Shown: positions 2,239 to 25,258 of the stretch, piece after piece
Numbering within the stretch: the first letter of the stretch is position 1
How the letters are laid out: each line of letters starts with the position of its first letter
IMG/VR virus record: IMGVR_UViG_3300025308_000337
Span: 1-25,258 of that record
DNA from: a virus
Direction: 5' to 3' (one strand)
DNA length: 25,258 nucleotides
The notes under the pieces: generated by a model
Databases searched by the model: none
Told to the model about the DNA's origin: nothing
What the model saw: the letters and a program-made list of their open reading frames with translations, nothing else
Program-made: the position numbers and the translations under genes

Positions 2239-2478
2239 TTAAGTCTCTTCAGTGTCTATTTTTGGGTTTACTTCGGTGTTGAGCAAAGTATTTTTGCAAT
2301 CTGCTAACTTTGCAGAGTTGTCCTGCTCACTGTTTTTCTCTGCAGTCAAACAATCTTCCAATAACTGCTTTAAATGCGCTGAGTCGTTTACAGTGTTCAC
2401 GTCAAAGCTGTATGCTCTCAAATTATCTAACTCAACAATCAAAGTATTCCCAACAATTTTTATTTCATCTATTTTCAT
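2239..2478 (-). CDS. Hypothetical small protein of the tail-fibre operon
   Basis: This protein has about 79 residues when started at ATG 2478, where the ATGA overlap with the stop of the collar-domain gene suggests translational coupling. An in-frame start at 2496 would overlap that gene further. The N-terminal third has alternating hydrophobic residues (MKIDEIKIVGNTLIVEL), which looks like a short beta sheet. The rest is acidic and helical, with two cysteines. This resembles small accessory proteins or fibre-assembly chaperones encoded beside fibre genes, but no family is recognised. Confidence 0.6.
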   Translation of the reverse strand: MKIDEIKIVGNTLIVELDNLRAYSFDVNTVNDSAHLKQLLEDCLTAEKNSEQDNSAKLADCKNTLLNTEVNPKIDTEET

Positions 2479-2954
2479 TTTACCCTCATTATCCAAACAA
2501 CTTCATAAAACGGCGAAAGCGTGTCGCCAGTAGGAACTCCAGAGTATGTTGGCCCCGACTCATAAAAAAATCCGCCAGCTGGTCCTGTGGAAAAACTGGA
2601 GTTTGACAAGCTTGAGAACCCGCCGATTGTTCCGGAAGTTGTAGATCCTCTAAGATATCTTTTTGTTCCCCCGCCTGAAGCGTTTAGATTAGGAATTGTC
2701 TGGCCATCGTATACGCTTTCTGAATCGCTTAATGTCTGCCCGTTGCATTCAACCCAGCCAGAAGGTAAGGCGGGAGTGTTTGTAAAACTTTTAAGCCACG
2801 CCATCACAGAGCCTATTGGTGCTATGTGCGTTAATGTGTTGTCTGTTGGAGTGTTTCCATTAAACTCATCTTCAACATCCTCAAAATTCTGATTAACTTC
2901 ATCTGCATCTGCAACGGTTCCATTCACGAAATTAGTCGTAACAGCAAAACTCAT
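2475..2954 (-). CDS. Phage tail-collar domain protein (tail fibre)
   Basis: This 159-residue protein belongs to the phage tail-collar type. From about residue 46 it shows the diagnostic order GSVMAWL, then P-SGWVECNGQ, then an ...IPNLN segment and a KRYLRGS motif. It ends with PFYEVVWIMRVK, the conserved C-terminal strand of this family. The N-terminus (NFVNGTVADADEVNQNFEDVE) matches the usual collar-fibre lead-in. The protein probably forms part of the distal fibre that contacts the host surface. It overlaps the preceding gene (2951..3226) by four bases and the following gene at ATGA, so it is translated within a compact operon that starts at promoter P3. Confidence 0.85.
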   Translation of the reverse strand: MSFAVTTNFVNGTVADADEVNQNFEDVEDEFNGNTPTDNTLTHIAPIGSVMAWLKSFTNTPALPSGWVECNGQTLSDSESVYDGQTIPNLNASGGGTKRYLRGSTTSGTIGGFSSLSNSSFSTGPAGGFFYESGPTYSGVPTGDTLSPFYEVVWIMRVK

Positions 2955-3226
2955 AATATTTTCAACACCTCTTTTTTGCCCTGATCTGTTGACTCAACTT
3001 CTTTCACTAATTTGAATCCTAAAACATGAGCCAGTTCAACAATCCTGTAATAAAGCTCTTTTTTGTCTTCAACAATCCAAAGAGTAAAGCCAAGCATTTG
3101 TCTTTGAAAAGGATAAGTTGTCCGAGAATCATTGTAAAATTTCAAGCTTGTTTCTAACTTAGCTTTAAAAGCATTTATTCCAGATTCCTTAAAATACTTA
3201 TTTTGCATCTCTTCAATCGTCGCCAT
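2951..3226 (-). CDS. Hypothetical small helical protein
   Basis: This 91-residue soluble, mainly helical protein starts MATIEEMQNKYF and contains aromatic residues in a central amphipathic segment (FTLWIVEDKKELYYRIVEL). No cysteine or membrane segment is present. ATG 3226 is exactly 22 bases from promoter P3, so this is the first gene of a leaderless mRNA that continues into the collar-domain fibre gene with a four-base overlap. A role as chaperone or fibre-assembly factor is possible from context. The family is not recognised. Confidence 0.7.
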   Translation of the reverse strand: MATIEEMQNKYFKESGINAFKAKLETSLKFYNDSRTTYPFQRQMLGFTLWIVEDKKELYYRIVELAHVLGFKLVKEVESTDQGKKEVLKIL

Positions 3227-3247
3227 GTTTCATCAACCCCTTCGTTT

Positions 3248-3264
3248 TATTTAAAACGTTTTTT
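3248..3264 (-). promoter_or_regulatory. Archaeal BRE/TATA promoter P3
   Basis: The minus strand reads AAAAAACGTTTTAAATA. The inner edge is 22 bases from ATG 3226. The outer edge touches the stop region of the upstream fibre gene 3263..4150, so the promoter is squeezed into the short space between two genes. Confidence 0.85.
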
Positions 3265-4150
3265 ACACTAATTTGTCCTTTTGAACAAAACTTATCTCAA
3301 CTGTCTCTGATTTGTTTAAAGGAGTAAAAACCGCTCTACTGTAAATCTTAGGAGAACTGTCTGTATTAAATAATCCCATCTCAGATATATCATAGCCGTT
3401 TGCTTCAAGAGTATTAAGAAAGCATCTAAACGTGACTTGCAGGTTTGTTTCATCTAAGATTGGATATCCTGAAACAAAAATTTTCGGAAAATCATCAAAA
3501 CTTGCAAGCTTGATATCATCCATAACTATATCTCCATCAACCCATGTGTCTGCTGAATTCACAGAGAGCAAGGTTATTTTAGTGTAATCGCATGCTGTGA
3601 TTATTGGACTCCCATTAATAACGTCTGGATTGTTGCTTGTCAATTTTGTTATGAGATTCCATCCAACAGATAAGTTAGCTTTGGGAGTTATCCACTCGTA
3701 ATTGTTTGAACTGTCTGATCCAAAATTTATCTTTATGGCCTCGCTGGAGCCCAATTTGTTTAAAGTTGCGGTGTCTTTAATATAAATCCAAACGCTTAAT
3801 TCTTTGTCTGTAAAATCTAGAGAAGCTGTTGTTTTCTCTACATAGGCAATTGTTGAAGAGGCGCCGTCTTTGGTTAGATTCAAGGCGTTTAAACCTTCTT
3901 TAAAGGTCGTTGAATTCAGCGAGCTTGTCATGTCTGCTGAATCTGTCCAATTTGCTGTTTCGCAATCGTCAACGCTTTCTGTTCCCGACATTGGGACTTT
4001 AATATCTAAATCAGTGTCAGTTGCTTGGGAAGTCGCTGTTCCAATTCCAACTGCAAATCTTGAAGGGGCTGTATAATCTGGAATTTCCTTGAACATTCTG
4101 TTTAGAAAAATTCTAAGTCCCTCATTTGTGACCTTGCTGCCGTTTGTCAT
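3263..4150 (-). CDS. Tail-fibre/baseplate protein with inserted jelly-roll-like domain
   Basis: This is a 295-residue protein. Residues 1-52 (GLRIFLNRMF, FAVGIGTATS) and 220-295 (YPILDETN, GYDISEMGLFN, YSRAVFTPLNKSE) look like two halves of a common phage baseplate/fibre domain. Between them lies a segment of about 165 residues with features of carbohydrate-binding jelly rolls: a DCET-x-NW start, FKEGLNALNLT, LSVWIYIKD, WNLITKL and a closing DIVMDDIKL strand. This suggests a sugar-binding module inserted into a baseplate protein, fitting a receptor-binding role. The protein starts at ATG 4150, 22 bases from promoter P4. The domain assignment comes from reading motifs and has not been tested by a structure search. 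Confidence 0.75.
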   Translation of the reverse strand: MTNGSKVTNEGLRIFLNRMFKEIPDYTAPSRFAVGIGTATSQATDTDLDIKVPMSGTESVDDCETANWTDSADMTSSLNSTTFKEGLNALNLTKDGASSTIAYVEKTTASLDFTDKELSVWIYIKDTATLNKLGSSEAIKINFGSDSSNNYEWITPKANLSVGWNLITKLTSNNPDVINGSPIITACDYTKITLLSVNSADTWVDGDIVMDDIKLASFDDFPKIFVSGYPILDETNLQVTFRCFLNTLEANGYDISEMGLFNTDSSPKIYSRAVFTPLNKSETVEISFVQKDKLV

Positions 4151-6145: not shown

Positions 6146-6517
6146 TTAGCTGTCTATGACACTCCCTTCAATTAACGTTAAGCTGTAATCAATCTCATTA
6201 ACATCTGCCTCAACCCATGTCCATGTAAATTCCTGAATAAGGACATTTCTTGTTGCATCAACCAAGCTGCTCACAAAAATCGCACTTGCTTGCTGCCCGT
6301 TTTGCAATCCTTCAATAAATGAAATAAATGATTTTAACTCGGCTTTTGTTCCAACCTTCACCCCGTCAACTGTGATGGTCCTTTGTGTTCCCATGATATC
6401 CATAATTAAAGCATCGCTCGAATCAGAGTATGGGATTGGTTGAGCGTATAACCCAGAGCTCTTTGTCTGCTTTTCTGATTTTACAGTTCCCAAATCAATT
6501 CCAGCTATGCTTGCCAT
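6146..6517 (-). CDS. Distal tail / baseplate protein
   Basis: This 123-residue, all-beta protein lies between the tape measure and the hub, the usual place of a distal tail (Dit-like or gp53/LysM-less) protein. It contains a strand pair around residues 45-56 (TQRTITVDGVKVG), a helix KAELKSFISFIEGLQNG and terminal strands (FTWTWVEADVNEIDYSLTLIEG). This resembles tail proteins that form the ring between tube and hub. Its ATG overlaps the stop of the tape measure gene (TAATG), so the two are coupled. The role is inferred from gene order and fold type. Confidence 0.7.
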   Translation of the reverse strand: MASIAGIDLGTVKSEKQTKSSGLYAQPIPYSDSSDALIMDIMGTQRTITVDGVKVGTKAELKSFISFIEGLQNGQQASAIFVSSLVDATRNVLIQEFTWTWVEADVNEIDYSLTLIEGSVIDS

Positions 6518-7797
6518 TATCTTACGCTAAACCTCCGATTAGTTTGTCTTTGCAAAACCTGGCTTACTTGGTCTGCTAATTTCTTTATGTCAGAATCGTC
6601 TCTAACCATTGGATGATTGATGTTTACGATAATGCTCCCGCCACCCATTTTTCCAAATAATTTTTCTGGCTTCTTAATCCCAATCAGAGTGTCATCAGGA
6701 GAAGTTTCGATTATTTGTCCGCCAGGCCTTAAAATAAAATCATTAGCTCTTTTACTCTCGCTTTTTTCCCTTCTTGTGAATAAACTTACAACGTAATTAA
6801 CAGCGCTTCTCACAGCATTAGCAATCCAGCTTCCAATGTCCTTTAACCCGTTCCAAATCATCTCAGACACTTTTTTCATGACATTCCACATCCATTGTCT
6901 GAACTGCTGATCTAACTCATACAAATAAACAAAAAATCCTTTAATCTGCTCCCAGAAAACTATGACTATCGCTATCAAAGCAGCCACAGTAGCTACAATT
7001 GCCCCCACAACTAAAGAACCGCCAGCTGTCACAACTGCTAAAATAATCATCGCAATTGCCGCAATAATTAGGCCCACTCCAATCCAGGCAGATGTAGTTT
7101 TTCCAAATCTTTCTATTATGGATTCTGCTGACAATTCCAAGCCCTCATATAGTGCTTTGAAAGCATCCGGCAAGGTTGTAATGAAAATCTCAATCAAAAC
7201 GGGAATAACATCACTCATGACAATTCTAAGCATTTTTAGAAAGGGATCCTTGACTAAAACCCAAATCTTGGCTATGAATTCCATCAAGGTTGTAAATGCC
7301 TGGACTAGTCCATCTCCAACGCTGCCCAATAAATCAGACATCCATTGACCCATGTCTAATTCTCCAGATGTGACTCCTCCAACTGTTTTGGCTGCTTTTT
7401 TAGCAGCTGCCCCCAAAGCTTTCAACACAGGCAATAAAATAGGAACCAGCGGAAGAAATAATAAGAAAATGATTAATCTTAGAATATTGAGAATTCCTTT
7501 AACTACTGGATTGCTCTGAGCAAAAGCCAATCCTTTCTTTAACAGTCCACCAACAAGCATGATTCCGCCAATAACAAGACCTATGCCTGCAAGCAATTTC
7601 CCAAATCCAGCTACTTTTGATCCTATCCCAGAAGCTCCAGAGCTAGCTCTTGCTCCACCGCTTGATCCGCCAAATCCAAGGCTTCCCATCAATGATTTTG
7701 TCTTTTCATGAAAAGACTCAGCAATGCTCTTGCCAAGACTTTTTCCTTCTTTGTCTCCCCTAACTTCAATAGGGATCTTAATTTCCATATCTGCCAT
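6517..7797 (-). CDS. Tail tape measure protein
   Basis: This 426-residue protein has the hallmarks of a tape measure. It has an amphipathic N-terminus, a Gly/Ser/Ala-rich patch (about 40-60) and several long hydrophobic helices (about 66-88, 103-128 and 237-283). The C-terminus NDFILRPGGQIIETSPDD, followed by IIVNINHPMVRDDSDIKKLADQVSQ, is conserved in tape measures. It sets tail length and is thought to be ejected with DNA, the hydrophobic helices possibly inserting in the host membrane. At roughly 1.5 angstrom per residue, 426 residues would give a tail of about 60 nm, which is short for a siphovirus. The gene lies directly after the two tail-assembly chaperone frames. Confidence 0.85.
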   Translation of the reverse strand: MADMEIKIPIEVRGDKEGKSLGKSIAESFHEKTKSLMGSLGFGGSSGGARASSGASGIGSKVAGFGKLLAGIGLVIGGIMLVGGLLKKGLAFAQSNPVVKGILNILRLIIFLLFLPLVPILLPVLKALGAAAKKAAKTVGGVTSGELDMGQWMSDLLGSVGDGLVQAFTTLMEFIAKIWVLVKDPFLKMLRIVMSDVIPVLIEIFITTLPDAFKALYEGLELSAESIIERFGKTTSAWIGVGLIIAAIAMIILAVVTAGGSLVVGAIVATVAALIAIVIVFWEQIKGFFVYLYELDQQFRQWMWNVMKKVSEMIWNGLKDIGSWIANAVRSAVNYVVSLFTRREKSESKRANDFILRPGGQIIETSPDDTLIGIKKPEKLFGKMGGGSIIVNINHPMVRDDSDIKKLADQVSQVLQRQTNRRFSVR

Positions 7798-7799
7798 AG

Positions 7800-8027
7800 T
7801 TATTTGAACAACTTGCTGAGAACTCTTGCAAAAGCATTTTCTAGGCGCCGATCATCTGTCTTTTGGAATTCTTTTTCAAGCTCCAAAATGTAGACCATTC
7901 TGTCATACGGAATTCTGTCAACTTGCTCTGGAGTCCAGTGGAAATAATGAGCAAAAAAGCAATACATTACTTCGTTGTTCAGATCGTCATGGTCCTGATG
8001 AAAGCCTCTCAGAGTTTCCCTGATCAA
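7800..8027 (-). CDS. Tail assembly chaperone, frameshifted (T) part
   Basis: This frame of about 75 residues contains HWTPEQVDRIPYDRMVYILELEKE, which fits the T segment of tail-assembly chaperones, and it ends two bases before the tape measure start. It lacks a good start: the only candidate is TTG 8027, overlapping the stop of the upstream frame. In this frame a TAA lies just before the run of nine A residues. It is therefore probably expressed by -1 slippage on that run as a C-terminal extension of 8024..8386, as in lambda G/GT. An independent start at TTG is the alternative. The fusion would read DIKKK then RLIRETLRGF. Confidence 0.8.
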   Translation of the reverse strand: MIRETLRGFHQDHDDLNNEVMYCFFAHYFHWTPEQVDRIPYDRMVYILELEKEFQKTDDRRLENAFARVLSKLFK

Positions 8028-8386
8028 TCTTTTTTTTTAATGTCAGGTTCTGCAAACTCTTGATATTCTATGAACAGATAGTCAGATACTTCAGCAGGCA
8101 GTTTCTTGATGCTTTCAATGTCAAAAGCAAACGGAGCTTTCACGATTGCTTTTGCCAGAATCTGCTCTTGGATCTCAGCATCATTCACTGTTATATTTGG
8201 CTGTCCGCCCAGGATAACGGTTTTTGTCGCTGAACTCCTTATCTTGTTTCTCACGCCAGTTGACAATTTTCTGACAGTCACGATTTCTTCTTTATCGTTA
8301 ACTATCAGGGGAATGTCTTTGGTTTGTTCCACTACCTTGTTATCCTCTATCTGGATTCTCGGAACATCTTTTTGTTCTTGCGTCAT
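8024..8386 (-). CDS. Tail assembly chaperone (G-like)
   Basis: This 120-residue soluble protein lies between the tail tube and tape measure genes, the fixed position of the G chaperone. It has an N-terminal beta region (RIQIEDNKVVEQTKDIPLIVND), a basic middle and a helical C-terminus with IKKLPAEVSDYLFIEYQEF. It begins at ATG 8386 behind a strong Shine-Dalgarno (GGAGG at 8394-8398, seven bases away). Its last codons are three AAA followed by GAT TGA, forming a slippery run. Some ribosomes probably shift into 7800..8027 to make a longer G-T protein that coats the tape measure during tail assembly. Confidence 0.8.
   Translation of the reverse strand: MTQEQKDVPRIQIEDNKVVEQTKDIPLIVNDKEEIVTVRKLSTGVRNKIRSSATKTVILGGQPNITVNDAEIQEQILAKAIVKAPFAFDIESIKKLPAEVSDYLFIEYQEFAEPDIKKKD
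8030..8038 (-). other. Candidate -1 ribosomal frameshift site, tail chaperones
   Basis: A run of nine A residues on the minus strand forms three AAA codons at the end of the G-like frame, followed by GAT TGA. It contains an in-phase A AAA AAA heptamer. Slipping back one base joins the frame to 7800..8027, whose own frame is closed by TAA immediately upstream of the run. Position and geometry match the conserved G/GT frameshift of tailed phages. Confidence 0.75.
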
Positions 8387-8425
8387 TCTTTTTCCTCCAA
8401 TTTAATTATAGCACAAAATAAAAAA

Positions 8426-9424
8426 TTAAGGCGTAATGTTGCTTGCCTGTGCTGGAGCAAATTCTTCACTGTTTGTGTAAACAACATTTGTCAAAGTTCT
8501 GGTAAAACCAGCCATGTCGTCTTTGACTACCTCTGTTGGCGATTGCGGGAGCGTGTTTTCGTTGAAGTGCACATTTGCAAAATTGAACACTATTGTGTCC
8601 CCATCTGGATTTGTAAACGTCAAAATCATGGTTGCCATTTCTCCAGAACTTGTTTCATCTGGAGCCAATCCAGTTGCGCCATCATAGAATTTCTTTAACA
8701 AAGCATAATCTTTGATTGCAGTTGTCAACCTGAAATTATACTCTCTCTGTTTTGCCACAACGCCTTGAGCAAATCTGCTGCCTGTCCCATAGACTAATTC
8801 AACAGTGTTCATTATTGTCAGTTCTAAATTCTGAACAGCTGCCGCGATCTGACCGTTAATGTCAATCACTCCGCCTGCAAACGTGAAGTTCTGGAAATTA
8901 TCTGCTACTGCTGGATTTGCTGACTCTGTGAGTTTGTCAAACCTGTAAGGACACTCTAAGGTTATTCTTACTGGTTCGTTAACTGCCGCAGTTAAAGTCA
9001 TTGTGTTTATAACACAACCAAGGAAAGTTTCATATCCTGTCGTTGTTCCAAACTCTGCTTCTCTGGTTACCGAAAAGCTTGGCAAAACATCTGTTTCTGT
9101 GTAGGTGTGCGTGTAAGGTCCTGCGCCGCCATCAGCATTTGTTCCAAGCAAACCTAACAGCCAATATCCATTAGTCATGTTCATGTTCACTGTCAAAGTT
9201 CCTTTATATCCTAAAGGAATTATTGCGCTCGGATTTCTGTCTCCAACACCATAAACTTTTCTTTTGTCATGACTTCTTAAAACAGAAGAGTCAACGCCCT
9301 GGCCAAAAGCAACATAGGTTTCATCTGAAGCCAAATGCTGAGCTATCTGCACGCTGTATGCGTCTGGATCTTCATAAGCAAACTTTATTCCTGTTTGCGC
9401 TCCGCTTATGTATGAGTCTGTGAT
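8426..9424 (-). CDS. Major tail tube protein, probable ATC start
   Basis: This encodes about 332 residues if started at ATC 9424. The first ordinary start codon, GTG 9352, gives 308 residues and has no Shine-Dalgarno. The 24 codons upstream of GTG 9352 are open and read like a normal protein N-terminus (ITDSYISGAQTGIKFAYED). A perfect AGGAGGT (9432-9438) lies seven bases before ATC, the same spacing as for the next gene. A TAG closes the frame just upstream. The protein is all-beta, Thr/Asn/Gly-rich, with GYKGTLTVNMNM and a C-terminal FTRTLTNVVYT strand. Length, fold and position before the G/T chaperones identify the tube subunit. Confidence 0.8.
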   Translation of the reverse strand: MTDSYISGAQTGIKFAYEDPDAYSVQIAQHLASDETYVAFGQGVDSSVLRSHDKRKVYGVGDRNPSAIIPLGYKGTLTVNMNMTNGYWLLGLLGTNADGGAGPYTHTYTETDVLPSFSVTREAEFGTTTGYETFLGCVINTMTLTAAVNEPVRITLECPYRFDKLTESANPAVADNFQNFTFAGGVIDINGQIAAAVQNLELTIMNTVELVYGTGSRFAQGVVAKQREYNFRLTTAIKDYALLKKFYDGATGLAPDETSSGEMATMILTFTNPDGDTIVFNFANVHFNENTLPQSPTEVVKDDMAGFTRTLTNVVYTNSEEFAPAQASNITP

Positions 9425-18995: not shown

Positions 18996-19132
18996 ATTTT
19001 CCTCCCTTGTAATTTTTTCTTTTTTTGCAATGCTTTAATGTGCTTGTTGCAAAACCTTCCAAGAGAGGTTTCCCAGTCTGCCACATTTCTGCATTGACCA
19101 TTCCCATACTCGCAAAACGCATTACTTCCCAT
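18908..19132 (-). CDS. Small zinc-finger-like protein
   Basis: This 74-residue product has Cys7, Cys14, Cys28 and His31 (CEYGNGQC...GRFCNKH), a spacing that can bind one zinc ion. After residue 36 it turns into a lysine run and overlaps the coiled-coil gene by 88 bases. The last 36 residues may therefore be non-native. An A AAA AAG heptamer at codons 36-38 could move ribosomes by -1 into the coiled-coil frame. The gene overlaps the zinc-ribbon gene upstream by 11 bases. Small zinc proteins beside terminase genes occur in phages (HNH-like or transcription factor-like), but no nuclease motif is visible here. Confidence 0.6.
   Translation of the reverse strand: MGSNAFCEYGNGQCRNVADWETSLGRFCNKHIKALQKKKKLQGRKICLSKKLKKALRLIRLNKSFTFMLPKKDL
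19019..19025 (-). other. Candidate -1 frameshift heptamer A AAA AAG
   Basis: The heptamer A AAA AAG is in phase with the zinc-protein gene (codons 36-38, CAA AAA AAG). Slipping back one base gives eight codons leading directly to the ATG of the coiled-coil gene at 18995. The same heptamer is the slippery site of bacterial dnaX. A GGAGG (19001-19005) lies downstream, not upstream, so the usual Shine-Dalgarno stimulator is absent. It is only a candidate. Confidence 0.45.
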
Positions 19133-19346
19133 ATTTCCTCAAATTCACTTTATTTTTGCACTCCGGACACTTGATTTCATTAGGAGCTTTTTTCAGAATG
19201 ATCTGTCCTTTTCCGCACTTACAGCACTTCATAATATAGAAATTCTTTGTTTCAAAAACTCTGTAATTGCCAGCTCTTCTTGCTGTTGAATTGCAATAAG
19301 GACAACGCTTAATTCCATATGTATTCGGCTGGACTATTTTATGCAT
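19122..19346 (-). CDS. Small zinc-ribbon protein
   Basis: This 74-residue, basic product has three CxxC-type pairs: CPYC at 15-18, CCKC at 41-44 and CPEC at 60-63. Two zinc ribbons, or one ribbon plus a knuckle, are plausible. Archaeal viruses often encode such proteins as transcription factors or nucleic-acid binders. The start ATG overlaps the stop of the HTH gene upstream, and the end overlaps the next zinc-finger gene, so these are cotranslated. The substrate is unknown. Confidence 0.7.
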   Translation of the reverse strand: MHKIVQPNTYGIKRCPYCNSTARRAGNYRVFETKNFYIMKCCKCGKGQIILKKAPNEIKCPECKNKVNLRKYGK

Positions 19347-19908
19347 TAGCCCTGCCCCCTGACAACATCCTCTCTAGTTTCTCTTGTTCTTCTTTTGTAA
19401 GCTTGTTATAGATATTTTCCCAGCTTTCAACATGACCCTGAAATTCTCCCGATTGACCTATAATCTTAATTGGGTCTGCTTCTTTTGGCTTTAATCCCCA
19501 CGCTTCAAGCTCTTCCCTTACATGCTTTCCCGCCTGGATTAATATTGCGATAGTTCTAATTTTTTCTTCATTATTTGTTGATGTAGATAAAATTCTCAGC
19601 GCCTGTTTTAATGATTGGTCTCTTTCAACTTCAAGATCTATTTTTATCTCCTCAATTTTTGATGGTTTGTAATTTCCCTTAATCCATTTGAAATCCTTGT
19701 AAATTGTTCTTTCACTCACATTATAGTGCTTAGCCCAGATTTTGATGTCATCTGTTGCGTTTCTGATGCCAATTTTCTTCACAACTCCTAGCAATTGCAT
19801 CCTTCTTTCCTTGCACTCATTTTTGACCGCGTTTTGCCCGCGATTCCCTTTAAATGGCCATTCAAAACTTTCGGATTTTGCCCGCGATTGAACCTCTTTT
19901 TCTGTCAT
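19339..19908 (-). CDS. HTH protein, candidate terminase small subunit
   Basis: This has about 189 residues from ATG 19908, supported by GGTGA four bases upstream and by the ATGA overlap with the methyltransferase stop. In-frame ATG 19944 is less likely. A helix-turn-helix at about 50-77 contains IKIWAKHYNVSERTIYKDFKWIKG. A helical core follows (LKQALRILSTSTNNEEKIRTIAIL). The C-terminus is amphipathic and charged (ESWENIYNKLTKEEQEKLERML). An N-terminal HTH, helical oligomerisation domain and position ahead of the large terminase are the layout of small terminases, so a DNA-recognition role in packaging is likely. A transcription regulator is the main alternative. Confidence 0.65.
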   Translation of the reverse strand: MTEKEVQSRAKSESFEWPFKGNRGQNAVKNECKERRMQLLGVVKKIGIRNATDDIKIWAKHYNVSERTIYKDFKWIKGNYKPSKIEEIKIDLEVERDQSLKQALRILSTSTNNEEKIRTIAILIQAGKHVREELEAWGLKPKEADPIKIIGQSGEFQGHVESWENIYNKLTKEEQEKLERMLSGGRANA

Positions 19909-20636
19909 AATTTCACCGCCTTTTTTCCTGTGAAAATCTCCCATCTTCCAATAATGATTTCAACATATTTCGGATCAAGTTCCATGATGTAACAAATTCT
20001 ATCAGTTCTTTCACAAGCCATTAATGTGCTGCCACTGCCACCAAACAAATCAAGAACTGTGTCTCCCGCGTCCGAGCTGTTCTGGATCGCAGTCATAATT
20101 AACCTAACTGGTTTTTGAGTTGGATGAACATACTTTCCTGTGGCTCTACGCCTTACAAACCAGACATCGCTTTGGTTTCTTTCTCCTCTAAATTTTTTGT
20201 TGTCAAAATAAAAATACATCATTTGTTCATAAGCTGAATGATAATCTCCTGGAAGAATTGAATAGCCATTTTTTACCCAGATAATCATTCTAGCCCTATT
20301 CTTTAAATTCTTAGAAACCCAGCTATAGATTGGCCCTACTTGCTTTGAACCGCAGCATATGTAAACAGCCCCTTCGCATATCCCCGTGTTAATCAAATTG
20401 AGCAAGTCAAGAATCTTAAAATTCACATCCCCCATAATTCCGCCCAATTCCTTAACTCTCCTTCCGCCCTTTCTTCTTTCTTCCGGCACATAATTAACTG
20501 AATAAGGTGGATCTGTAAAAATCATAGTGCTGACTTTTTTGTCTATTAGTCTCTGAACGTCAATTAAGCTTAAACTATCGCCGCACATTAATCGATGCTT
20601 GCCTAACAAAAAAATATCTCCTTTTTTAATTTCCAA
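19905..20636 (-). CDS. DNA methyltransferase, DPPY-type (N6A or N4C)
   Basis: This has about 243 residues from TTG 20636, chosen because GAGGTG lies five bases upstream. An in-frame GTG at 20642 overlaps that site. Numbered from the GTG, the order is catalytic motif IV FTDPPYSVNY (about 42-51), HPTQKPV (173-179), then motif I LDLFGGSGST (197-206), the circularly permuted beta-class arrangement. It probably transfers a methyl group from S-adenosylmethionine to adenine N6 or cytosine N4 in a short sequence. It is the last of three consecutive methyltransferases. No target-recognition region is visible beyond the core, as in small orphan phage enzymes. Confidence 0.9.
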   Translation of the reverse strand: MEIKKGDIFLLGKHRLMCGDSLSLIDVQRLIDKKVSTMIFTDPPYSVNYVPEERRKGGRRVKELGGIMGDVNFKILDLLNLINTGICEGAVYICCGSKQVGPIYSWVSKNLKNRARMIIWVKNGYSILPGDYHSAYEQMMYFYFDNKKFRGERNQSDVWFVRRRATGKYVHPTQKPVRLIMTAIQNSSDAGDTVLDLFGGSGSTLMACERTDRICYIMELDPKYVEIIIGRWEIFTGKKAVKL

Positions 20637-21255
20637 TTGCACACCTCAGTACATGCTTTCCTAACCTTGGATATACACAATTTCTCAGCACTTGCCTTTT
20701 GTTTTTTAATTTTATATTCATTAAATTTAGTCTGTGCAAGTCGATAAGTTCAGGTATTTGAGCCTCTCTTATTATTGCTTTTCTCTGTGAACCTTTAGAA
20801 GCTCGTCTATTCATTGTTCCGATCTGATGTTCAAAATCTATTTTGGATATTGTGAAATTACTCCAGAAACAATGCCTCCCTATTTTTTGTGGTTCTATTA
20901 ATGGTTGATAGTACGGCTTAACATTTTCTACCACCCACTTAACTTTGCAAAAATGTTTAAGGAATATAATTTCTTCGTACAACTTCATGTCAGGATATCT
21001 AAATATTCCCTGTCCTTTTAGGAAATGATTACACCCTGAATGGCTTTGACATGGTGGGCTACTCCAGATAAAATCAAATTCTTTAAAGTGTTCCAGTAAA
21101 TATTGATGTGCATCTCTAATTATGATAACATCCTTTGGAAATAATTTATGATACACATTTGCTATTTCTTGATTGTTCTCTACGGCTGTGACTTCTACAT
21201 TCTTCCATAACTTTCTGTTTCCTCCGATCCCTGCATAAAGATTTAAAATTTTCAA
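20626..21255 (-). CDS. C5-cytosine DNA methyltransferase, small
   Basis: This 209-residue product begins with AdoMet-binding motif I (LNLYAGIGGN, 4-13). It contains SSPPCQSHS with catalytic Cys69 and the motif VI-type sequence VVENVKPYY (108-116). This is the order of C5-cytosine methyltransferases. At 209 residues it is much shorter than normal enzymes (about 300-450), so the target-recognition domain is minimal or missing. It starts at TTG 21255, overlapping the stop of the ParB-methyltransferase gene (TTGA). It overlaps the next gene by about ten bases, so the three methyltransferases are tightly coupled. The substrate sequence cannot be told. Confidence 0.85.
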   Translation of the reverse strand: MKILNLYAGIGGNRKLWKNVEVTAVENNQEIANVYHKLFPKDVIIIRDAHQYLLEHFKEFDFIWSSPPCQSHSGCNHFLKGQGIFRYPDMKLYEEIIFLKHFCKVKWVVENVKPYYQPLIEPQKIGRHCFWSNFTISKIDFEHQIGTMNRRASKGSQRKAIIREAQIPELIDLHRLNLMNIKLKNKRQVLRNCVYPRLGKHVLRCAIGN

Positions 21256-22583
21256 ATTTTCTTATCCCCCACTTTTTTAATCACTTCAAACTTTGCAGCA
21301 GGTTTATAGAACAGATATCTTTCGATGACTAAGCTGACATAGTTTGGATCTAACTCAATGCCATAGCCCTTTCTTTTCAATTGGTCAGATGCAATTATTG
21401 AGGTTCCGCTTCCAAGAAATGGATCAAGAATTATCTCATTCTCAAAAGTGAAGAATCTAATACAGTTAAAAGGTAATTGAGTTGGAAAGGGAGCAGGATG
21501 ATTTCCGCCAAGGTTTGTTTCAGTCATCATTTCCCAGACATTTCCTGCGTACTTGTTTAGCAGGATGCTTGGAATCTGTTCTTTTTTCTCTCGCTTATCC
21601 TCTCCAAATTTGTAAGTTATCAACGTGTCATAAATTTCTGGCTTTTCTTCATTTGAATAAATTTGAATGATCTCTGTTTGAACCTTTGGAATGTAATATC
21701 TAGGAAAAGGATTTCTGTTTGTAATAGTCCCGCGAGCGCTTCCCGACGGCTTGCTCCAATAAATATTTCTAAAAAAGATAAATCCTAGTCTCTCAAGAAC
21801 CTCATCATATTTTGCAGGCATATTAATTGGTCCCCACTCTCTTCCAATGTTCACGCAAATAAATCGGCCTCTGTTCAAGAAAGTCTTAACGTTATCAAAA
21901 ATAGATTTAATCATTTCGATGTACTCTTTGTAATCTTTGTTATCCCTATATTTTCCATACTTGATATCAAGATTATAGGGCGGACTCGTAACGAGCAGAT
22001 CAACCTTATTTTCTCCAAGTAAGTTTCTTAATATTTTAGGATCAGTCGCGTCTCCGCAAATTATTCTATGCTTTCCATCCAAAATAACAATATCTCCCTC
22101 TTGTATGCTATATTTGTTTTCTAAATCAAAATCATCCTCAGTTGAAGAAGCATAAATTTGTTCTTTCTCTTTTTCTTTTAAAGCTAAGAGATAATTTATT
22201 TCTGAATTGTCAAACCCAGTTAAGTTGAGAATGTCTTCATTATCTTGTTCAATTTGCGTCAAGAGGTCAATTAATTTTTCTTCTTCGAATCTGCCGCCAA
22301 TCTTGTTCATAGCTAAGTTAAGAGCCCGCTCTCTGTTTAAGTCCAAATCTACAAGCATGCAAGGAACTTCTTTCATCCCCAATCTTTTAGCAACTTCAAG
22401 TCTTTGATGACCGCTTATTACAATATTTTCTCTTTCTGGGTTAGCATTAACGACTATTGGTTGAACCATTCCAAATTCCTTCACAGATTTCTCTAATTTT
22501 TTCAGCTCATCTTTGGTTATTTGTCTAGGATTATACTCAGAATCTTTCAAGCTGCTAATTTGAATTTGCCTTATCTTATCCAT
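21252..22583 (-). CDS. ParB-domain/DNA methyltransferase fusion
   Basis: This has about 443 residues from ATG 22583; an upstream in-frame TTG at 22598 is less likely. Residues 1 to about 100 are a ParB/sulfiredoxin-like nuclease domain (NPRQITKDELKKLEKSVKEFG, then VISGHQRLEVAKRLG). Residues 160-430 are a beta-class methyltransferase with VTSPPYNLD (198-206), HPAPFP (362-367) and DPFLGSGTS (387-395). The ParB part often provides DNA binding in such fusions, common in tailed phages. It shares the GDIVILDGKHRIICGD lead-in with 19905..20636 (GDIFLLGKHRLMCGD), so the two enzymes are related. The gene overlaps the winged-helix gene upstream by eight bases. Confidence 0.9.
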   Translation of the reverse strand: MDKIRQIQISSLKDSEYNPRQITKDELKKLEKSVKEFGMVQPIVVNANPERENIVISGHQRLEVAKRLGMKEVPCMLVDLDLNRERALNLAMNKIGGRFEEEKLIDLLTQIEQDNEDILNLTGFDNSEINYLLALKEKEKEQIYASSTEDDFDLENKYSIQEGDIVILDGKHRIICGDATDPKILRNLLGENKVDLLVTSPPYNLDIKYGKYRDNKDYKEYIEMIKSIFDNVKTFLNRGRFICVNIGREWGPINMPAKYDEVLERLGFIFFRNIYWSKPSGSARGTITNRNPFPRYYIPKVQTEIIQIYSNEEKPEIYDTLITYKFGEDKREKKEQIPSILLNKYAGNVWEMMTETNLGGNHPAPFPTQLPFNCIRFFTFENEIILDPFLGSGTSIIASDQLKRKGYGIELDPNYVSLVIERYLFYKPAAKFEVIKKVGDKKI

Positions 22584-23562
22584 TGTGCCTATCTCCAATT
22601 TTCTTTATTATCTTGGATACATTGCTTTCCATCTGCTGCAAAACTTGACCCAACATTATTTGATTTTCAGAACTGGTTTTCATCATCTCTCTTAGTTCCT
22701 TGAAATTGCTATGGATCTCTTGAGTAGTAATCGGGCGAGATTTCAGTGAATTAAAGAAATCTTGCACTTTCTCATTGTCAACATCAGCATCTTTTGGATG
22801 GACAGTTTCAGCTTCATGCAAATTATAAGAATTATCTATGATAAACCATAACCCATTTCCTGAATAAACTTCTAACTTGTCTCCCTTGTCATCATACTGC
22901 TTAGCTAAAGCGTTCTTGACGAGAGCATAATGTTGTCTTGTAACTCTGAACCTGTATTGTCCCTTCACGCTGAAATAACCGCCTAGAAATCGCTCTAATG
23001 CCCTTACAAGCTTGAAAAAATGGTGGATTGCGCAACTCTTAGCATCCTTGGCCAAATCAGCGACATAGCTTTCTTTTTCATAAATGATGATAGAATTATT
23101 TGTAAGATGTACCTTTCGTCCATTAAACTCTAATCCCTGACCACCGCCAAATAAATGTTTGAGTTCTTCAAAATCAATTTCTTTTTTTCTTAGGATTTCA
23201 GCTCTCTTGTCCCAATTCTTCAATCCTTCAGGTATTAATAGTTTGAACTGAAATGCATGGCCTCTAACTTGATCTTGTTTAAGAACTTCAAATTTACTAC
23301 CCCAGTTGGTAGTAGCTACCCGGGTTGTTTTTTTGAACTTCTTTTTGTCAAATTCTCCGGTAATTTCCCAAACACCGTAACCAACTTTTTTGATTAATTT
23401 CGCTTTCTTCAGCGTCGATAAATAGTATTGCAGAGATGTAGCTTTTAGATTCAAAACATCACAAATCTTAGATGGCCTAACACCTCTTTTTATGAACTCA
23501 TATACTAACAAGTTCAAATCTTTTTTCCCAGTTGTTTTTTGAAGTTCTTTTTGTTTTTTCAA
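22576..23562 (-). CDS. Winged-helix DNA-binding protein
   Basis: This has up to 328 residues. Residues 12-72 form a winged helix (LVYEFIKRGVRPSKICDVL, then LQYYLSTLKKAKLIKKVG, then a YGVWEIT wing). The middle is basic and aromatic (RGHAFQFKLLIPEGL, GGYFSVKGQYRFRVTRQHYAL). The C-terminus is helical with acidic residues. No ATG lies near the 5' end; TTG 23562 or TTG 23517 are candidates, so the N-terminus is uncertain. An AT-rich TATA-like run (23565-23577) sits directly before TTG 23562, which favours a later start. It heads the early-type operon of methyltransferases and zinc proteins. It could be a regulator or a replication initiator. Confidence 0.7.
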   Translation of the reverse strand: MKKQKELQKTTGKKDLNLLVYEFIKRGVRPSKICDVLNLKATSLQYYLSTLKKAKLIKKVGYGVWEITGEFDKKKFKKTTRVATTNWGSKFEVLKQDQVRGHAFQFKLLIPEGLKNWDKRAEILRKKEIDFEELKHLFGGGQGLEFNGRKVHLTNNSIIIYEKESYVADLAKDAKSCAIHHFFKLVRALERFLGGYFSVKGQYRFRVTRQHYALVKNALAKQYDDKGDKLEVYSGNGLWFIIDNSYNLHEAETVHPKDADVDNEKVQDFFNSLKSRPITTQEIHSNFKELREMMKTSSENQIMLGQVLQQMESNVSKIIKKIGDRHNG

Positions 23563-23667: not shown

Positions 23668-23839
23668 TGCCCCCGCCGGGATTTGAACCCGGGTTTGCGC
23701 CGTTCTCCACAACCTCAAGAAATTGAGGTTTATGATAAATAAAAGTGCCTGTCCTTTAGAGGACTGAGGTGGTTGTCTCGTCGACTTGAACCTCGGCGGT
23801 TCGAGAGGGCGCCGTCCTTGACCACTAGACTATGGGAGC
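23668..23839 (-). tRNA. tRNA-Glu(CTC) with 99-base intron
   Basis: The 5' exon (23839-23802) carries GCTCCCA, a D-arm matching other tRNA-Glu genes (GTCTAGTGGTCAAGGAC) and an anticodon loop with CTC. The 3' exon (23702-23668) carries a matching anticodon-stem side (GCGCC with GGCGC), T-arm CCGGG-TTCAAAT-CCCGG, acceptor CGGGGGC and discriminator A; CCA is not encoded. The intron (23801-23703) lies at 37/38. A four-pair CTCT:GGAG helix flanked by three-base bulges CGA and AAC, each cut after its second base, fits the archaeal splicing endonuclease. The spliced tRNA is 73 bases. Pair 7-66 is A-C and 3-70 is T-G, so the acceptor stem is weakened. No second tRNA is seen. Confidence 0.8.
23711..23730. 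repeat. Perfect inverted repeat inside the tRNA intron
   Basis: An 8-bp inverted repeat (AACCTCAA with TTGAGGTT, four-base loop) lies near the 3' end of the intron and may form a stem in the pre-tRNA. A second small inverted repeat (GTCC with GGAC) lies at about 23750-23763. Confidence 0.6.
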
Positions 23840-24013: not shown

Positions 24014-25258
24014 TTATTCCAAAAGCCATTTCCAGAGTGGAATGTATTTTATATTTGCTTCATCTCCAAACCATTCTGTTTTTTCTTCTTTTTCTGTATT
24101 TTCAGTTATTATCAAAAGATTATTGCACTTTAGTTCTTTGCCTGCTTTAATTAGTGCTCTTATTTCCCGATTCTTAGTTTTTAGATCAGTTATATTAAAA
24201 CATACTTGAATTAACTGCTTAATTTTTATTCCTTCTTTTACAACAAAGTCCACCTCTTCCTGCTGTTGATTTTTCCAATAATAAAGATTAATCTTGTTGT
24301 TTAACTCTTGTTTTTTCAGTTCTATGGCTACCGCGTTTTCGTATAACCTTCCTGAATTTTGACTTGAATTAAATGCTTTTGCATGAACAAATCCATTATC
24401 TATACAGTAGATTTTTTTAATTGAAGAAAGTTGTTCCTTAAGTTTGTATGAAAATCTGCTCAAGCTGAAGAAAATAAAAGATTCTTCTAGATATCCAAGA
24501 TATTTTTCAATAGTATGGCTACTTTTAATATTTGCTATTTTACTTAAAGAGTTATGAGAATATTCATTGCATAAGTTGGATAATAAATAAACCGATAAAT
24601 CTTCTATTGATTGTGAAGAGCGAATATTATATCTCTTTATTATATCCTTAAAAATTATCGAGTTAAATAATGTCGATAAATAATCCTTGTAATTTATTTT
24701 CTTAATTAGGGGCTCAGGATATCCACCATAAGTAAGATACTCGGCTAACTTTTCTTTAATTTCATAGGAAGTTAATTCTCTTTGATCAAGAGCAAGATAT
24801 TCTTTGAATGAAAATGGCAGAACAATTATCTGAAGATGCCTTCCCGTGAGGTGTGTCGCTAATTCTTTGCTTAATAGATGCGCATTACTTCCAGTTAATA
24901 CTAGATTAAGCCCTTGTCTTTGCAAACGATTAACAAAAAGTTCCCATTTTGGAAGATTTTGTATTTCGTCCAAGAAAAGTTTTTTAGGGTTTCCATACAC
25001 AGCATTCATTGACGAGACAAGTTCATCATAATTTTCAGTTTCAATAAGTTTCTCATCATCAAAGTTTATGTATCCAAAGGAGTTTTCTTTCTTTAAAAAA
25101 TGCAAGCTGAAAAAAGATTTTCCCGCTCTTCTGGGTCCAATTATAACCTTTATTAATTGGTTGTTTAAGTCTAATTTTATGCCCTGTCTATGAATATACT
25201 CCTCTTTCAATTTTGAGTCTAACTCTCGCTTCTGAAGTAGCAATAGGTCCTTTATCAT
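24014..25258 (-). CDS. AAA_14/DUF4143 ATPase
   Basis: This 414-residue protein starts with an ATG at the last base of the window; an upstream start outside cannot be excluded. The N-terminal ATPase has Walker A GPRRAGKS (41-48), Walker B LFLDEIQ (94-100), LTGSNA (121-126) and an arginine in LTGRH (137-141). The C-terminal DUF4143 part has GRLYENAVAIELKK and the nuclease-fold-like YYWKNQQQEEVDFVV. These proteins are common in archaea and bacteria; their role is unsettled, with links to mobile elements and toxin-like systems. It lies beyond the tRNA on the side away from the viral genes, so it is probably a host gene. Confidence 0.85.
   Translation of the reverse strand: MIKDLLLLQKRELDSKLKEEYIHRQGIKLDLNNQLIKVIIGPRRAGKSFFSLHFLKKENSFGYINFDDEKLIETENYDELVSSMNAVYGNPKKLFLDEIQNLPKWELFVNRLQRQGLNLVLTGSNAHLLSKELATHLTGRHLQIIVLPFSFKEYLALDQRELTSYEIKEKLAEYLTYGGYPEPLIKKINYKDYLSTLFNSIIFKDIIKRYNIRSSQSIEDLSVYLLSNLCNEYSHNSLSKIANIKSSHTIEKYLGYLEESFIFFSLSRFSYKLKEQLSSIKKIYCIDNGFVHAKAFNSSQNSGRLYENAVAIELKKQELNNKINLYYWKNQQQEEVDFVVKEGIKIKQLIQVCFNITDLKTKNREIRALIKAGKELKCNNLLIITENTEKEEKTEWFGDEANIKYIPLWKWLLE

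Follow-up and report, generated by a model that had tools for sequence, protein, structure and literature searches.

A conserved A_AAA_AAA motif and a predicted −1 ribosomal frameshift in the tail chaperone genes of a provirus with a probable Pacearchaeota-like host

Conservation of the −1 frameshift in tail chaperone genes has been described for tailed phages (review PMC5009743, citing Xu 2004). A −1 frameshift has also been predicted for the haloarchaeal siphoviruses HVTV-1 and HCTV-1/2/5 (PMC5009743, PMC8211752). The only experimentally demonstrated archaeal −1 frameshift named in a 2021 review is that of fucA1 from Saccharolobus solfataricus (PMC8211752), whose viral examples are predictions confined to haloarchaea, and a viral population has been linked to a Nanoarchaeota archaeon in one groundwater study (PMC10980836). 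An earlier sequence-only reading of the DNA analysed here regarded the documentation of programmed frameshifting in archaea as poor; this is correct as far as experiments are concerned, but since the predictions for HVTV-1 and HCTV-1/2/5 exist, the present locus is not the first archaeal case. As we describe below, two overlapping frames of this DNA, G and T, very probably encode the tail chaperones G and GT of a siphovirus-like provirus of a Pacearchaeota-type DPANN archaeon, with GT made through a ribosomal −1 slip on A_AAA_AAA.

The window, that is, the whole stretch of 25,258 nucleotides analysed (IMG/VR record IMGVR_UViG_3300025308_000337), carries the relevant features on its minus strand, a strand left unstated in the sequence-only reading:

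8426..9352, minus strand: tail tube protein (Phage_tube_2)
8394..8398, minus strand: GGAGG, the Shine-Dalgarno sequence of G
8024..8386, minus strand: G, a tail assembly chaperone ORF of the Phage_TAC_5/XkdN type, 120 aa, ATG start
8037..8039, minus strand: TAA in the T (−1) frame, blocking T initiation upstream of the slip site
8030..8036, minus strand: predicted slippery heptamer A_AAA_AAA inside the A9 run 8030-8038; the G frame continues with GAT TGA
8024..8026, minus strand: TGA, the stop codon of G, one codon past the slip site
7800..8036, minus strand: T, predicted −1 frame extension of 78 codons counted from the KK codons, plus stop
6517..7797, minus strand: tape measure protein, its ATG right behind the T stop
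23668..23839, minus strand: tRNA-Glu(CTC) whose anticodon loop is interrupted by a 99-nt intron; the 3' end of the tRNA adjoins the viral genes
24014..25258, minus strand: AAA_14/DUF4143 ATPase beyond the tRNA, a probable host gene

The tail tube gene is thus followed by the two overlapping frames, first G and then T, and these by the tape measure gene. Elsewhere in the window, also on the minus strand, three methyltransferase-like genes are neighbours (19905-22598): a gene that joins a ParB-like N-terminal domain to an N6/N4 DNA methylase (21252-22598), a 209-aa ORF (20626-21255) whose matches to C5 methylases are confined to their N-terminal third, and a further methylase-like ORF (19905-20642). 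At 19122-19346 (minus strand) lies the gene for a small zinc-ribbon protein that weakly resembles archaeal S27e and RNA polymerase subunit P.

The family, predicted fold and gene order of G support its assignment as an XkdN-type tail assembly chaperone, in agreement with the tail chaperone reading proposed earlier. All 25 of the G homologues searched match Phage_TAC_5 (PF08890) at E≤0.01 (best 1.6e-8) and 19 of the 25 match the XkdN-like PHROG 389; the window G itself scores E 6e-4 and 20.2 bits against Phage_TAC_5, under the curated Pfam cut-off of 27 bits. Its AF2 model (pLDDT 86.6) superimposes on YqbN (3klu) with a VIA-align Z of 9.0 over 92 residues at 3.0 A and approximately 11% identity, and the HK97 chaperone 2ob9 (Z 7.5) stands next to YqbN among the nearest folds. 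Foldseek likewise places YqbN at rank 1, with a probability of 0.96 but an E value of 0.18. Named top matches of the model in a viral structure library include tail assembly chaperones such as Mu FS-gp41, and the haloarchaeal HHTV-2 and ChaoS9 appear lower down. T is predicted to be helical (model pLDDT 78.4). A search of the Protein Data Bank with T gave no convincing match. Among 50,697 phage records neither G nor T has a match, and likewise none was found for the capsid; the terminase reaches only distant phages in this collection (23-26%).

The last codons of G read GAC ATT AAA AAA AAA GAT TGA, and the A9 they contain (8038-8030) is the sole run of at least eight A in the window on either strand. 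The T frame lies at −1 relative to G; an in-frame TAA (8039-8037) abuts the A-run, from which the frame is open down to 7800. A single −1 slip at A_AAA_AAA (8036-8030) would produce a 195-aa GT fusion in which T adds 76 residues to G, with the junction translation ...PDIKKKRLIRETL..., where PDIKKK is followed by RLIRETL. The nine A's in the final codons of G, the TAA directly ahead of them, the need for exactly −1 to join the frames and the junction KKKRLIRETL had all been given in the sequence-only reading and are reproduced here. Its further statement that T has no ordinary start stands apart from a TTG at 8027-8025; the only other T-frame start ahead of the T core in the window is an ATG one residue before that core.

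We followed the locus through viral contigs, where scans returned 16 loci for the G query, 31 for the G profile and the best 80 of 186 for the T profile. The junction could be read in 28 contigs, the window and 27 others, which include a few near-duplicates and share common ancestry and hence are not 28 independent events. The alignment of homologues that had been suggested as a check favours the predicted frameshift: the downstream frame is at −1 in all 28, and all 28 carry A_AAA_AAA in phase and in the same alignment column. This exceeds chance: among 312 Lys-Lys pairs encoded across ORFs from 25 of the contigs, G genes counted in, a phased heptamer occurs at only 57. The distance from slip site to G stop is 1, 2, 6 or 11 codons, depending on the contig. 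Divergence in the T frame is 0.29/0.20/0.55 at the three codon positions (25 sequences), showing that it evolves as a protein under selection, and T retains the conserved motif YWFFA...TPEQVD.LPYDR. In more distant T relatives (L074 onwards, approximately 32% identity) the frame is mostly at −1 to the upstream frame and the junction sequences differ. Conserved phase, conserved heptamer and coding selection on T together argue for the −1 frameshift that had been predicted from the window.

Of the rival readings of the −1 overlap on the A-run, we consider transcriptional slippage unlikely, though the least so: RNA polymerase would add or skip A's, such that some mRNAs would encode fused GT by ordinary translation. 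The A-run comprises 9 (n=10), 10 (n=13) or 11 (n=1) residues in 24 of the 28 relatives, in principle enough for a polymerase to slip; however, the remaining four (L017, L057, L061, L064) have A7, the heptamer minimum and short for polymerase slippage, with the phase unchanged. These four relatives favour ribosomal over polymerase slippage, and it is the in-phase heptamer that is constant while the run length varies.

Very improbable is termination at the G TGA followed by reinitiation on the overlapping TTG, giving a separate T protein. The TTGA overlap on which this would depend is present in the window and in L007, L015, L045 and L049, but elsewhere the TTG is replaced by TTA, CTA, GTA, TGG or AGA, and in the window it has no Shine-Dalgarno sequence ahead of it. 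Furthermore, eight relatives lack any ATG, GTG or TTG in the T frame ahead of the core YWFFA, and in another six the sole T-frame start is a Met one residue before the core; in some of the eight the G stop lies 6-11 codons past the slip site. Reinitiation is excluded for the relatives without starts, in which T would not be initiated independently, and it would in any case leave the conservation of A_AAA_AAA unexplained. A sequencing or assembly error artificially splitting one gene has a next to negligible probability: homopolymers are prone to errors, but the −1 relation is kept across 28 contigs from many metagenomes with runs of 7, 9, 10 and 11, which refutes an A-run error as the family-wide explanation, and contig L002, which possibly derives from the sample of the window, overlaps the window with 100% identity over 7,636 bases.

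Ribosomal slippage at A_AAA_AAA is accordingly the best-supported reading of the sequence arrangement and its conservation. Under this mechanism, the majority of ribosomes would terminate at the G stop to give the 120-aa chaperone, and a minority, with lysyl-tRNAs on A_AAA_AAA, would move back by one base and read on into T to give the 195-aa fusion, the slip frequency setting the G:GT ratio. By analogy with lambda, G may form a coat on the tape measure protein, and the recruitment of tail tube subunits may fall to the T domain. No pairs downstream of the slip site were obtained with RNAalifold over 25 sequences, single-sequence folds gave a mean z of −0.13, and no Shine-Dalgarno-like stimulator was seen upstream. 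Since no RNA structure was found, the slip site seems to work alone; with neither structure nor stimulator, the sequence gives no guide to slip efficiency, a point against the frameshift reading. We think it likely that DPANN (Pacearchaeota-like) ribosomes carry out programmed −1 frameshifting on a bare A_AAA_AAA, with neither a structure nor a Shine-Dalgarno stimulator, and that tailed archaeal viruses of an entire clade rely on this.

The flank of the window supports a Pacearchaeota-like DPANN archaeon as the predicted host of this virus. The same intron-bearing tRNA-Glu(CTC) (23839-23668), with a similar intron of 94-102 nt, occurs in DPANN genomes (eleven near-full-length matches, 72-77%), and two of these genomes, G023 and G025, combine the tRNA match with close relatives of the neighbouring ATPase, which is 71-73% identical to Pacearchaeota/Nanoarchaeota proteins. 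The archaeal nature of the virus, previously asserted without evidence, is thereby backed by both the tRNA and the ATPase. Viral genes begin immediately past the 3' end of tRNA-Glu, as expected of integration there, and this end is the probable attachment site; no second copy of it, representing the other attachment site, is present within the window, which fits a truncated provirus. G was not found in 371 genomes of the DPANN phylum or in 295 genomes of the phylum of Methanoregula, and the host link consequently rests on the window's own flank. A G profile search of genome contigs found no provirus, and a PF08890 search of genomes for proviruses gave sub-threshold matches only, all within longer open frames. 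Rfam C/D-box matches inside the ATPase fell under the cut-off and were rejected.

Two of the other viral contigs contain hints of their own hosts. L218 (1877-2725) has a weak match (5e-7) to the small subunit of archaeal DNA polymerase II (PolD), hinting at an archaeal host. In L210, from a related virus, an XPB-like helicase is broken by N- and C-terminal intein halves plus an HNH domain across two overlapping ORFs (1227-2480 and 2470-3732), each with its own ATG, which looks like a natural split intein.

A correct gene model for T is gained from this analysis, where ordinary gene finders would miss T or give it a false start. Conserved throughout the lineage and minimal in form at seven A's, the site offers a simple, testable substrate for archaeal frameshifting from viruses linked to DPANN archaea with reduced genomes, and the locus is an indication that lambda-type control of the chaperone ratio reaches into tailed viruses of DPANN hosts. 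If our reading is true, this is, to our knowledge, the first recoding event of such a kind tied to the DPANN superphylum.

The locus resembles lambda gpG/gpGT in its short overlapping frames between tube and tape measure, a −1 shift near the end of G and the products G and GT. The lambda slip site is G_GGA_AAG, whereas the window is predicted to use A_AAA_AAA and to have an archaeal host, and no counterpart in the phage collection could be detected by sequence. With XkdN/YqbN of Bacillus prophages (PF08890, PDB 3klu) G has family and predicted fold in common, but it differs in its sub-cut-off Pfam score (20.2 vs 27 bits) and low identity to YqbN (~11%). An A_AAA_AA-type slippery site read by archaeal ribosomes is likewise found in fucA1; that gene, however, encodes a cellular enzyme, and its site, A_AAA_AAT, comes with rare codons as well as a putative stem-loop, whereas the window is viral and no structure was found. 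HVTV-1 is also an archaeal tailed virus, and its annotation joins the two tail chaperone frames into one CDS immediately ahead of the tape measure gene. Its G shows no recognisable relationship to the G profile used here (hhalign probability 0.1%), and its own GGGAAAG sits well upstream of its G stop. The hosts of HVTV-1 and the HCTV viruses are halophilic euryarchaea, as opposed to the DPANN host proposed for the window virus. The mechanism is therefore already known, having been predicted earlier in haloarchaeal viruses, and what is new here is the DPANN-type host lineage.
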